DNA of 9,609 bases from Thermoproteota archaeon (lineage in GTDB: Archaea > Korarchaeota > Korarchaeia > B14-G2): the NCBI GenBank assembly GCA_003661385.1, contig QMWA01000054.1, forward strand, positions 1-9,609, in the 5' to 3' direction. The notes below the pieces were generated by a model. It was not told the origin of the DNA. It saw only the letters and a program-made list of their open reading frames with translations, and made no database searches. A program made the translations under genes and the position numbers. Below are positions 3,699 to 8,362 of this stretch, piece after piece (position 1 is the stretch's first letter; every line of letters begins with the position of its first letter).

Positions 3699-4235
3699 TT
3701 TCCCCTTAGCATCCCTCTGCTCTCTCAACCATATTTCCCTCACCCTGCTAGCCCCATTTATCTCCATCATGAATTCCATGACAGCCTTAGGGACAAGCTT
3801 CACCCAGCTGTTGTCTCCAGAAGCCATTAAAGCTCTGATCCTCGTAGCTGAGTAGACCTCTCTGCGATAGAATGGTATGGGCTTAACTACGATCCCCACT
3901 GCCTCAAGCTCTCTACGGGTCCAGTCATCATTAGAGTACACAACATCAAACTTAGGGCACCGCTCAAGAACTATCCTAGCCCAGTCAGGCTGATCGGGTG
4001 TGCTATCAGGGATAGGCACCAGAGCGACTCTGCCTAGCTCTACTCCCTCAGCTCTGAGAGCCCTAACCAACATCTCCATCCTCTCCGAAGCCGAAAAAGG
4101 ATTTCTCCAAGTCCAAGAGTACTGCGAGCTTCCTATGCCAATTATCATATAGCTACACTGTCTCATCACATACTTAAGGGCATGAATATGCCCCAGGTGA
4201 AGTGGCTGGAACCTTCCAATGACCAGTGCATGCAC
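3684..4235 (-). CDS. nadM: Nicotinamide-nucleotide adenylyltransferase (archaeal NMNAT)
   Basis: This 183-residue cytoplasmic enzyme joins NMN and ATP to make NAD and pyrophosphate. It has the nucleotidyltransferase Rossmann signature GRFQPLHLGH at 7-16 (HxGH is HLGH, 13-16), IIGIGSSQYSWTWRNPFSAS near 31-50 ending in ER, VPIPD at 73-77, FDVVYSND at 96-103, and YSATRIR at 128-134, which matches the ATP-binding SxTxxR motif; archaeal relatives usually have YSGTEIR. LVPKAV and EINGASRVRE near the end also fit the archaeal NadM type. The GTG start gives the expected short lead into GRFQP and has a strong GGAGGGG site 6 nt upstream. It is divergent from rtcA with only 40 bp between starts and convergent with PINA. 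Confidence 0.94.
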   Translation of the reverse strand: MHALVIGRFQPLHLGHIHALKYVMRQCSYMIIGIGSSQYSWTWRNPFSASERMEMLVRALRAEGVELGRVALVPIPDSTPDQPDWARIVLERCPKFDVVYSNDDWTRRELEAVGIVVKPIPFYRREVYSATRIRALMASGDNSWVKLVPKAVMEFMMEINGASRVREIWLREQRDAKGKLRLR

Positions 4236-4241
4236 TCTTAT

Positions 4242-4248
4242 CCCCTCC
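4242..4248 (-). promoter_or_regulatory. Strong ribosome binding site of nadM
   Basis: On the minus strand GGAGGGG lies 6 nt before the GTG at 4235. It shows that nadM has a leader of at least 13 nt, so its promoter must lie in the gap or inside the first codons of rtcA. Confidence 0.75.
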
Positions 4249-4275
4249 TGCCTCCAGCTCTAACAGGGATCAGAG

Positions 4276-5337
4276 ATGCTCGTGGAAATAGATGGGAGCA
4301 TATATGAAGGTGGTGGAGCAATCTTCAGGAACTCACTAGCCCTATCTGCTGCAACCCAGAGGCCAGTCAAGGTATTTAGAATTAGGGCAAAGAGGTCTAA
4401 ACCAGGGCTGAGGCCACAGCACCTCATGGTAGCTAAGGCCCTGACCAGGATGACTTTAGGGAAGGCTACAGGCTTAGCGATAGGCTCTCAGGAGGTGATC
4501 TTCTACCCGCAGAGAGTACTTGGAGGGTCCTATGTGCTAGACATCGGTACTGCAGGGTCAATAACTCTACTCCTCCAAGCTATCCTCCCTGCAGCAGTCT
4601 TTGCCTCGTCAAAAGTCAAGCTAAAGGTCATAGGGGGCACCGATGTCCCAATGGCTCCGCCAGTAGACTACTTCCATCATGTGTTTCTTCCAGCTCTCAG
4701 AGACATGGGTGTTATCGTCCACCTTAAGCTGCTACGTAGAGGACACTACCCCAAAGGAGGAGGGATCTGTGAAGTGGAGGTTGATCCTGTAAATGTGCTT
4801 GCCCCGATTCTGAGGCTAGAGAGAGGAGAAATAACCAGAGTGTCTGGGGTGGCTCATGCAGTCAGGCTGCCTAAGCATGTGGTGGAGAGAATCGCCTCCT
4901 CAGCAGAAGACGCCCTCAGAAGGCATGGTATAGAGGGTGTGGAGATCAAAAGAGATTACAGACCTAACAGAGGGCATCTAGGCCCTGGAGCTGGAATAGT
5001 ACTCTGGGCGATAGATGACTTAGGTAACGTGCTTGGCGCAGATGCTCTAGGTAAGAGGGGGAAGCCCAGCGAGCAGGTAGGCAGGGAAGCTGCTGAGAAG
5101 CTCATCAAGGAAATCCAGTCAGGCTGCCCAGTCGACCGCCATCTCGGAGACATGCTGATCCCTTACATGGCGATGGCATCTGGCCGCTCAGAGATAAGAG
5201 TATCCTGCCTAACCCTACATACTCTATCAAACATCGCTGTCGCAGAGAAGATACTCGGAGTGAGCTTTTCTATAAGCGGAAGAGAGGGAGCGCCTGCTAC
5301 AATAGCTGTAGAGGGGGCTGCCATCAGAAGAAGCTAG
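4276..5337 (+). CDS. rtcA: RNA 3'-terminal phosphate cyclase
   Basis: RtcA converts an RNA 3'-phosphate to a 2',3'-cyclic phosphate through an enzyme-AMP intermediate, and can also adenylate DNA or RNA ends. The 353-residue length is normal. Motifs: YEGGGAIFRNSLALS from 10, IRAKRSKPGLRPQHL at 36-50, DIGTAGSITLLLQAILP at 89-105, GGTDVPMAPPVDYFHHVFLP at 120-139, RRGHYPKGGG at 154-163, HLGDMLIPYMA at 289-299, and LHTLSNIAVAEKILGVSFS from 314. H315 matches the histidine that takes AMP in the E. coli enzyme (His309). The common GGGQ is GGGA here, a change close to the active site. A 2-ligase RtcB is not in the window. The ATG start has only a weak GGGAT site upstream. The gene is divergent from nadM and overlaps the 3' end of the hydrolase gene by 14 nt. 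Confidence 0.94.
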   Translation: MLVEIDGSIYEGGGAIFRNSLALSAATQRPVKVFRIRAKRSKPGLRPQHLMVAKALTRMTLGKATGLAIGSQEVIFYPQRVLGGSYVLDIGTAGSITLLLQAILPAAVFASSKVKLKVIGGTDVPMAPPVDYFHHVFLPALRDMGVIVHLKLLRRGHYPKGGGICEVEVDPVNVLAPILRLERGEITRVSGVAHAVRLPKHVVERIASSAEDALRRHGIEGVEIKRDYRPNRGHLGPGAGIVLWAIDDLGNVLGADALGKRGKPSEQVGREAAEKLIKEIQSGCPVDRHLGDMLIPYMAMASGRSEIRVSCLTLHTLSNIAVAEKILGVSFSISGREGAPATIAVEGAAIRRS

Positions 5338-6004
5338 CTCCAATTCTCTCCACCATCATTAGAGCTAGCTTGATCTCGCTGCCTCCATCCCTAGTTTCTA
5401 TGCTTCCATGTCCAGGGAGAAGCACTCTGACATCTAGTGATGCAAGACGCCTTACTGAGGCTAAAAGCCTGCTAAAGCTTCCGCCTGGAAAGTCTACCCT
5501 CCCAACTCCTCCTCCAGTAAATACGGTATCTCCGCTTATCAAGATCCTATGTTCCCTGTCATACAAGCATATGGATCCCGGTGTATGTCCTGGCGTCTCC
5601 AGGACTGTAAACCTGTAGCTCCCCGCCTCTATGACACTGCCCTCCTTGACGAATCTATCAATGTTGATCCTGTACTCTCTTATGCCAAAGAACCTATGGA
5701 GTATCCTGCTTTCATCACCTTTTACAAGAGCCTCCCCATCTTCCCTGCTAGCAACCGTATAGCACTCTATTCTCTTAGAGAGGAGCTTAAAGCCTCCAGT
5801 ATGGTCAAAGTGAGCATGTGTAAACACGACAACAGCCTCCTTGCCTGCGAGAAGCTCTGTAATCCTATTTGTAACCTCACTGAGTCCTGTATCAACGATG
5901 ACAGGAGGCTCTGACATTATAACATAGCTGTTGGAGCTCAAGCCATAGCTAACTACAGCATAGAGCTTAGGAAGCACTTCAGCTACTCTTATCAACCTAA
6001 CCAC
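5324..6004 (-). CDS. Metallo-beta-lactamase-fold hydrolase
   Basis: A 226-residue MBL-fold protein of the glyoxalase II-like group. The metal site is complete: THAHFDHTGG gives H63, H65, D67 and H68; LETPGHTPGS gives H140; ISGDTVFTGGGVGRVDFPGG gives D159; and LLPGHG gives H199, consistent with a two-metal centre. No extra RNA-processing domain is present, so it is more likely a small-molecule thioester, persulfide or related hydrolase than a beta-CASP nuclease; the substrate cannot be read from the sequence. The GTG start is supported by the TTTAAA element 26.5 bp upstream, which predicts a leaderless mRNA. It is divergent from crenactin through a shared symmetric promoter and its tail overlaps rtcA by 14 nt. 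Confidence 0.9.
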   Translation of the reverse strand: MVRLIRVAEVLPKLYAVVSYGLSSNSYVIMSEPPVIVDTGLSEVTNRITELLAGKEAVVVFTHAHFDHTGGFKLLSKRIECYTVASREDGEALVKGDESRILHRFFGIREYRINIDRFVKEGSVIEAGSYRFTVLETPGHTPGSICLYDREHRILISGDTVFTGGGVGRVDFPGGSFSRLLASVRRLASLDVRVLLPGHGSIETRDGGSEIKLALMMVERIGASFF

Positions 6005-6022
6005 TAATACGCTAGCATAGTA

Positions 6023-6040
6023 GAACCTTTAAATTGGTTC
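6023..6040. promoter_or_regulatory. Symmetric two-way promoter between the MBL hydrolase and crenactin
   Basis: The 18 bp GAACC-TTTAAATT-GGTTC has perfect 5-bp inverted arms around an A/T core containing the self-complementary box TTTAAA at 6028-6033. The axis of that box is 26.5 bp from the GTG of crenactin (6057) and 26.5 bp from the GTG of the hydrolase (6004). Archaeal transcription normally begins about 25-27 bp from the TATA centre, so both mRNAs should start at or beside their GTG codons and be leaderless. Neither gene has a ribosome binding site, in agreement. The arms could also be a dimeric operator overlapping the TATA box. Confidence 0.72.
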
Positions 6041-6056
6041 AACCTAGCTTCCACTA

Positions 6057-7364
6057 GTGACCCCAGCCATGGAGTGGATTGAGAGAAGGAAGCTCCTAGC
6101 ATTTGGAGAGGACTATGGGACATCATACTTCAAGTTCGGCCCAGCTACTCTGGGCAACAAGCCAGATATGTTTGAGAACAGAGGCTACTTCTATACGCCA
6201 ACTAGAGTAGAGCAAGCCCTAGGAGCTCCAGCCACCAGAGTAATAGTGGGGCCAGATCTAGCTCAGTACCTTCAATCGACAAGTGACCTCTCAAAGCTAT
6301 ACTACCCGATGAGACATGGGACAATTAGCAAGGACGATGAGAAGGGGTGGACCATAGTAAAGGAGATAACGAGGTATGCGCTAAACAAGTACGCTCCAAA
6401 GCCAGGCGACCCCCAGTACCCCGGCTTCAAGGGCTTCTGGGTGGCAGCAGCGATAGCCGCCAACTCCCCTAACTCGATGTATGAGAGGCTCATAGAAATA
6501 CATCGAGAGCTAAACGAGGAATCTGACCGCCCCCTGGTACAGGCGCTCACAATAATACCCCAGCCTCTCGCTGTAGCCATCTCCCAGAAGCAAATACACT
6601 GCATAGTCATAGAATCAGGCCACGGAAACACCCAGATAACACCGATAAGCCGGGGGATAATATACGGCGCGATGATACCCCTAAACAGAGGAGGACAAGA
6701 TGCAGATAACATGGCGAGGCAGCTACTCCGGGACTTGGGGTACCAGGACATAGCTAGAGAGGAAAAGATAGTCACAGAGTTCAAGGAGGCTGTAGGTTTA
6801 ATCCCCTTGGACCTAAATAGAGCTGTATCAGAGGCAAAGAGAGATCCAAGAAGGTTTAAAGCCGTATTTCAGATCCCGGAAGCTGGAATACGCATAGAAC
6901 TGGAGAAGGAGAGCTGGCAGAGGTTCCTCATAGGAGAGTACGTGTTTAACCCCTCTCACCCAGAGTTTGAGTCATACTACAGCAGAGGTTTCCACAGGCC
7001 TTTAGACACCCCCTTGCCATGGGGGACGATACCTGGAGATGCCAGCTTAGCTCAGGTCATAAGAGAGTCACTGAACAAGTGTGCGATAGAAGTCAGACGC
7101 TATGTGACAAGCATGTTGATCCTCTCAGGAGGGAACTTCTCCTGGAGAGCCCCCCCAGAGCTCAGTGGCTATGCTGTAGATGCGCCAACAAAGATCAAGT
7201 ATGAGCTGAAGAAGGAGAACATTGATGTTCCAAGGGTCATGATGGCTAGTGACCCACAGTACTCTGTCTGGAGAGGATGCATATTCTATGCTACATTCCT
7301 AAAGCCTGAGATAGAGTGGGACTCTAAGTCTAGGGAAGGCTGGGTCCTCTTTATAAGGGAGTAA
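6057..7364 (+). CDS. Crenactin, archaeal actin homologue
   Basis: A 435-residue actin-fold ATPase. Crenactin from Pyrobaculum forms actin-like filaments in the cytoplasm and is thought to help rod cell shape. This protein matches it throughout: phosphate loop 1 is GEDYGTSYFKFGPATL from 17; IIPQPLAVA at 166-174 carries the Gln comparable to actin Gln137; phosphate loop 2 is ESGHGNTQITPIS at 186-198; LNRGG, then LRDLGYQDIAREE, at 209-236; the adenosine loop is ILSGGNFSWRAPP at 355-367; and the C-terminus has SDPQYSVWRG and REGW. Length is close to the Pyrobaculum protein of about 430. The GTG at 6057 fits a leaderless mRNA; the ATG at 6069 is the alternative. It shares a promoter with the divergent hydrolase. 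Downstream lie a small helical protein and a MinD-like ATPase; I recognise no arcadin. Confidence 0.95.
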   Translation: MTPAMEWIERRKLLAFGEDYGTSYFKFGPATLGNKPDMFENRGYFYTPTRVEQALGAPATRVIVGPDLAQYLQSTSDLSKLYYPMRHGTISKDDEKGWTIVKEITRYALNKYAPKPGDPQYPGFKGFWVAAAIAANSPNSMYERLIEIHRELNEESDRPLVQALTIIPQPLAVAISQKQIHCIVIESGHGNTQITPISRGIIYGAMIPLNRGGQDADNMARQLLRDLGYQDIAREEKIVTEFKEAVGLIPLDLNRAVSEAKRDPRRFKAVFQIPEAGIRIELEKESWQRFLIGEYVFNPSHPEFESYYSRGFHRPLDTPLPWGTIPGDASLAQVIRESLNKCAIEVRRYVTSMLILSGGNFSWRAPPELSGYAVDAPTKIKYELKKENIDVPRVMMASDPQYSVWRGCIFYATFLKPEIEWDSKSREGWVLFIRE

Positions 7365-7633: not shown

Positions 7634-8362
7634 TTGCTTACCATAGCTGTCATCTCAGGTAAGGGTGGAACTGGGAAGACTACGATAACAGCTAGCTTAG
7701 GCTACATCCTTGCATCAGAGTACAAGAAGAAAGTCTGCTTAATAGACGCTGATGTAGGCTTATCATGCTTAACAAGACTCTTCAAGGTGAGCTACACGCT
7801 AACATTAAGAGATGCTCTCAAGGATCCTGCTATCAAACTAGCTCACATAATGAGACCAGCACTCTCACTCCAAAACCTGCTTATAGTTCCCTCTGGAACA
7901 GCCTTACATGACTTAGTTGCCAGTAATCCGAAGATTCTCGTGAGCAAGTTATTAGAAGTTTCTCAAAGTGGCGTTGATGTAACTCTAATAGATGCACCTG
8001 CTGGAATAAGCAGCGTAGTCATAGCCTCAATGGTAGCTTCCGACAAGTACATGCTGGTAGAGGAGCTAAACCCTTGGGGTATTGACGCAGCACTTAAGCT
8101 GAAATCGCTTGCTGAGAGGCTCCAAAAGCCATCTATAGGATTAGTGCTAAATGATGTAGTAGGGTGGAAGGGCACAGTCCGTAGAGCTATCCGAAGTATA
8201 GAAGAGATTGTGGGAATACGCGTGCTAGGTGTAGTCCCTAATGACAAGGTAGTCAGGAAGGCTACGATGAGGCTTGAAGTTCTGGCTGAAAAATACCCAA
8301 AGTCCAAGGCTACTAAGGCAATAAGGGAAGTAGCTAAGAAGGTAGCTGAGCTCGTCAGCTAG
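7634..8362 (+). CDS. MinD/ParA-type P-loop ATPase
   Basis: A 242-residue deviant-Walker ATPase. The P-loop is ISGKGGTGKTT at 7-17, with the signature lysine K10 that works across the dimer and K15 in the normal place. Switch I is LIDADVG at 36-42 and switch II LIDAPAG at 118-124. VLNDV at 171-175 is in the place of the family's nucleotide-base loop. The C-terminal region has SKATKAIREVAKKVAELV, which could form an amphipathic helix like the membrane anchor of MinD, though less clearly. Such proteins form ATP dimers on membranes or DNA and place other cell structures; archaeal MinD relatives position archaella and pili. Unlike bacterial Min systems there is no MinC or MinE here. It follows the 69-residue protein and its TAG shares CTAG with the stop of the opposite-strand 67-residue gene. 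Confidence 0.9.
   Translation: MLTIAVISGKGGTGKTTITASLGYILASEYKKKVCLIDADVGLSCLTRLFKVSYTLTLRDALKDPAIKLAHIMRPALSLQNLLIVPSGTALHDLVASNPKILVSKLLEVSQSGVDVTLIDAPAGISSVVIASMVASDKYMLVEELNPWGIDAALKLKSLAERLQKPSIGLVLNDVVGWKGTVRRAIRSIEEIVGIRVLGVVPNDKVVRKATMRLEVLAEKYPKSKATKAIREVAKKVAELVS

Follow-up and report, generated by a model that had tools for sequence, protein, structure and literature searches.

A candidate bidirectional TATA-box promoter between divergent crenactin-like and metallo-hydrolase genes in a korarchaeal genome

Introduction

In a contig from an uncultured korarchaeon, the gene for a crenactin homologue and the gene for an MBL-fold metallo-hydrolase are read in opposite directions from closely spaced GTG codons. 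Does the short sequence between them hold one promoter that could serve both genes, a promoter for a single gene, or something other than a promoter? We addressed this question by computational analysis of the window, the whole stretch of 9,609 nucleotides, which is one entire contig of a 1.74-Mb assembly of 206 contigs.

Results

The genes and the element between their starts

The rightward gene (6057..7364, plus strand, GTG start) encodes a product that aligns to the solved crenactin 4cj7 over residues 14-430 (E 5.6e-97) and matches NCBIfam NF053560 (E 3.3e-152) at 507 bits, under the equivalog cut-off of 630 bits. We use 'crenactin' here to mean crenactin homologue, a name based on sequence homology with the NCBIfam threshold not reached. 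The leftward gene (5324..6004, minus strand, GTG start) is assigned to the MBL-fold metallo-hydrolases by its match to Pfam Lactamase_B (E 5.2e-31). A gene for an archaeal MinD-like ATPase (7634-8362) follows crenactin in the same direction, 269 bp past its end.

An initial annotation of this DNA had reported an 18-bp inverted repeat, GAACC-TTTAAATT-GGTTC, with TTTAAA at 6028-6033, and a direct read of the sequence bears out both, with the repeat at 6023-6040 and TTTAAA lying within TTTAAATT. The central TTTAAATT is not in itself a palindrome, so the element consists of 5-bp arms flanking 8 bp. The annotation had also placed the axis of the repeat 26.5 bp from each GTG, a single-axis claim that is off because it merges two axes 1 bp apart. 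The distance holds for TTTAAA, whose axis at 6030.5 is exactly 26.5 bp from the first bases of both GTG codons (6004 on the minus strand for the hydrolase, 6057 on the plus strand for crenactin), but not for the repeat. The axis of the repeat falls at 6031.5, shifted rightward by 1 bp, with 27.5 bp to the start of the hydrolase and 25.5 bp to that of crenactin. From the first base of one GTG to that of the other is 53 bp, a figure that would give the spacing of the transcription start points only where neither mRNA has a leader.

A promoter match on both strands

For a promoter model we sampled 100 contigs of the same genome (1.14 Mb, two thirds of the assembly), in which 1077 genes were called by codon usage, and derived an upstream motif by expectation maximisation against a second-order background. 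A held-out model was trained on tandem and wide head-to-head genes, with close head-to-head pairs excluded. Motif search without a seed in upstream regions of this genome returned AGCT-rich composition only. The genome's own motif,.AA.gtTTTTAAa, has a BRE-like AA ahead of the TATA box, and its position is bimodal, with the box centre either about 34.5 bp (short leader) or about 26.5 bp (leaderless) upstream of the start.

The top promoter-model site on both strands is the common TATA element TTTAAATT (6028..6035, read on the minus strand as AATTTAAA). Plus-strand and minus-strand scores of the site at 6023-6040 are 8.4 and 7.5 nats with the full model, and 8.0 and 6.4 nats with the held-out model; the held-out scores are matched or beaten at only 0.018% (plus) and 0.058% (minus) of positions in the sampled genome. 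Both gene starts lie at the genome's leaderless distance from the box (25.5 and 27.5 bp from the axis of the arms), and a match this strong on both strands at that distance exceeds chance. There is no second site above 4 nats at a usable distance from either start, on either strand of the gap. Consistent with the initial annotation, which had proposed one TATA box for both genes and leaderless spacing on both sides, the box is the sole good promoter in the gap, it fits the BRE-TATA model on both strands, and both distances belong to the genome's leaderless class. A caveat is the inherent symmetry of any TATA box, by which promoters of tandem genes often match on the opposite strand too; the fraction of them that does so above 4 nats is 0.75. 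Two-way sites also occur within genes (136 of 407), and one promoter-like site of this kind lies within the crenactin gene itself, at 6849-6868. Sequence 5' of genes is AT-richer near the promoter region, and short AT runs are frequent there.

A bidirectional core promoter as the preferred reading

On either side of the box lies a BRE-like GAACC, at 6023..6027 on the plus strand for rightward transcription of crenactin and at 6036..6040 on the minus strand (GGTTC on the plus strand) for leftward transcription of the hydrolase. Each places its AA on the AA at the BRE position of the genome's promoters, and each arm is best read, from its sequence, as the BRE of the transcript beyond the box on the far side. 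This reading of the arms by the genome motif agrees with the earlier proposal that matching flanks let TBP/TFB load either way.

We propose, at a probability of roughly three in four, that 6023-6040 is a BRE-TATA-BRE bidirectional core promoter that yields leaderless mRNAs both ways. TBP would bend the near-symmetric TTTAAATT box and TFB would dock on the GAACC arm of either side; the arm chosen by TFB would set the direction, with RNA polymerase placed about 26 bp off. Transcription would then begin at about 6057 for crenactin (rightward) and at about 6004 for the hydrolase (leftward), both mRNAs would be leaderless, and the two complexes would presumably exclude each other. Firing in both directions is what we infer from the sequence of the element. 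Both TBP and TFB are encoded in this genome. TFB and TBP genes lie at most about 2 kb apart (G000:C28, about 4000-6450; C33:9347-9499), and a third, weak TBP-like match is found on another contig.

Alternative readings of the element

A variant compatible with a two-way promoter is that one or both mRNAs carry short leaders, with crenactin translated from the ATG at 6069..6071 (plus strand; 12 nt downstream of the GTG, giving a 12-nt leader), the hydrolase from the TTG at 5993..5995 (minus strand; 9 nt downstream, leader 8-9 nt), or both. The codon-usage start caller favours ATG 6069 for crenactin, and the box-to-start distances would be 36.5-37.5 bp, near the short-leader class of the genome. 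Against this, a Shine-Dalgarno-like sequence is found in 66% of short-leader genes of the same genome; none precedes ATG 6069 (CTAGTGACCCC), and that before TTG 5995, a weak G-rich stretch, is displaced. This TTG is the weaker of the rival starts. GTG is also a common start among leaderless genes here (21 of 66). We consider short leaders unlikely, and leaderless mRNAs on both sides would be the better, if provisional, reading of these codons. It is less likely still that the promoter works one way only, driving a single gene, most probably crenactin. The opposite match would then reflect passive symmetry of the TATA box, and transcription of the hydrolase would be weak or a side effect. The plus side is indeed the stronger (8.0 versus 6.4), opposite-strand matches are frequent in tandem promoters, and opposite transcripts in P. 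furiosus are often antisense noise (PMC6640164). However, the box is properly spaced from the hydrolase start, for which we could find no other promoter, the left-facing BRE is intact, and a second BRE is commoner in close head-to-head pairs than in other promoters.

Readings that dispense with a shared box fare worse. The gap might hold two separate overlapping promoters, or AT-rich sequence that resembles a promoter by chance and has no such function. The AT-richness and frequent short AT runs around promoter regions would favour this, but the gap contains a single box, and the sites scoring at the 0.018% and 0.058% levels fall together, each at leaderless distance from its gene, which makes either version highly improbable. 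We give just as little credence to a dimeric regulator that binds GAACC-N8-GGTTC as an operator and blocks TBP on both sides, a role for the arms that the initial annotation had offered as an alternative and that we have dropped. Perfect 5-bp arms do flank the box, and an operator shared between divergent genes is a common regulatory layout. GAACC-N8-GGTTC is present once in the window (0 matches in 200 shuffles), but this is also its one copy in the entire 1.74-Mb assembly. Arms complementary at all five positions occur at 7 of 997 two-way TATA sites (0.70%) versus 0.66% when positions are drawn at random and the best of 4 registers is taken; the symmetry is at chance level and the perfection of the palindrome therefore needs no extra explanation. 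Moreover, both arms are already accounted for as BREs and no regulator gene lies beside the element. The nearby palindrome GGTTCAACC (6036-6044) was rejected as an operator as well, since its half-site pattern GGTTNAACC is rarer in the genome than expected (5 versus 17) and falls mostly within genes.

Relation to known bidirectional promoters

The preferred BRE-TATA-BRE reading has a described counterpart, and 6023-6040 has the sequence features of that kind: one near-symmetric box with BRE-like flanks on both sides. Bidirectional BRE-TATA-BRE promoters of P. furiosus have starts about 50 bp apart, and one of them, with 49 bp spacing, was confirmed in vitro (PMC6640164). The likeness extends to the TTTAAA-type near-symmetric box and the BRE on each side, and may extend to the spacing (53 bp from GTG to GTG here versus 49-50 bp between starts). 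Unlike in P. furiosus, where the opposite transcripts studied are mostly antisense in head-to-tail genes and were judged non-functional (PMC6640164), both directions here enter protein genes directly; transcription was measured in that species, whereas for the present element it is inferred.

Widespread occurrence of symmetric bidirectional promoters, in archaea as in bacteria, has been described (Warman et al. 2021, doi 10.1038/s41564-021-00898-9, as reported in PMC10268837 and PMC12825309). Their symmetry, according to these accounts, lets the machinery load either way, and in this they resemble the element described here. The bacterial promoters, as reported there, differ in using a shared -10 element, and their starts are usually separated by 18 bp. 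Of the symmetric bidirectional promoters in E. coli, 24% lie between divergent genes and yield two mRNAs, and the two sides compete only under strong activation of one of them (PMC12825309), so competition at the crenactin element is not to be assumed. The element also resembles the promoters of ordinary leaderless archaeal genes, with TATA about 26 bp before the start codon and box-to-start distances here of 25.5-27.5 bp, but ordinary leaderless genes have one box each and here one box fits two genes.

Recurrence of the layout in the genome

Head-to-head pairs in this genome are often closely spaced, with gaps of 45-80 bp in 46 of 175 pairs (26%), as compared with about 10% of tandem and 5% of convergent gaps. 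Where promoters were found on both sides of a pair, a single box accounted for both in 18 of 20 close pairs (45-80 bp) and in none of 25 wider gaps, a contrast that is partly geometric, since two boxes hardly fit into 45-80 bp. In a less biased test, the box was chosen from one gene only and the match on the opposite strand was then scored. With the full model, and with both sides of each pair counted, the opposite-strand match was higher in close pairs at p 0.0014 versus tandem genes and 6e-5 versus wide pairs; with the held-out model the comparison of close pairs with all others was just significant, at p ~0.04 for each strand taken alone. A T is found at the second-BRE position in 62% of boxes in close pairs, compared with 18% in tandem genes and 28% in wide pairs. 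By inspection, in at least five pairs, the crenactin pair included, a single box lies 25-29 bp from each of the two starts (L033, L049, L066, L089 and L086). A 45-80 bp head-to-head cluster and the same bimodal box distance were also present in 400 kb sampled from a related complete genome (G002); the cluster was not seen in a more distant genome (G026).

Overall the crenactin-hydrolase layout seems to be no one-off and to be common for head-to-head genes in this genome. A broader view is that a two-way TATA box could be a standard layout in this korarchaeal lineage, used by about a quarter of head-to-head pairs, with the second BRE under selection, gene order shaped by it and the expression of unrelated genes coupled or opposed; we put this forward tentatively, at somewhat less than even odds. 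The kind of promoter is already described in archaea, and what is less ordinary is its commonness among head-to-head genes here. Should the element fire both ways, the cytoskeletal gene and its enzyme neighbour would depend on a single site of TBP/TFB assembly, the gap offering no further promoter, and a change in the box would alter both crenactin and hydrolase. Two thirds of the assembly contain roughly 18 candidate promoters for two mRNAs, which could show if direction is set by the second BRE and if there is competition between the sides. The P. furiosus study took the opposite transcript mainly as antisense noise (PMC6640164).

The gene pair in relatives and other gaps in the window

The nearest relatives compared were Thermoproteota and Methanodesulfokora MAGs from other families of the same class, with about 50-53% crenactin identity. 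Among 28 genomes from this class and phylum, none had a hydrolase homologue at E 1e-30. By tblastn, the crenactin loci of these genomes showed no hydrolase upstream of crenactin, and neither did 80 loci from a second collection that overlaps in part with the first. The pair is kept in no relative among about 110 crenactin loci, and as far as compared it appears special to this lineage. In the relatives' loci the gene preceding crenactin mostly runs in the same direction. In loci L197, L227, L236 and L251 a small divergent ORF lies 71-82 bp upstream of crenactin; these loci were considered as counterparts of the gap and rejected, their gap sequences being unrelated. An RNA 3'-phosphate cyclase gene, unlike the hydrolase gene, is found near crenactin in most relatives (L003-L029), in other arrangements.

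In the window, genes for a nicotinamide-nucleotide adenylyltransferase-like protein (minus strand) and an RNA 3'-phosphate cyclase (plus strand) form a head-to-head pair at 4235-4276 with 40 bp between them; unlike the crenactin pair, this one lacks any TATA match above 2 nats within or around its gap. A plus-strand TATA site is present at 2096-2111, in the head-to-head gap (2082-2154) that separates the gene for a small zinc-ribbon-like protein from that for a T2SSE-type ATPase.
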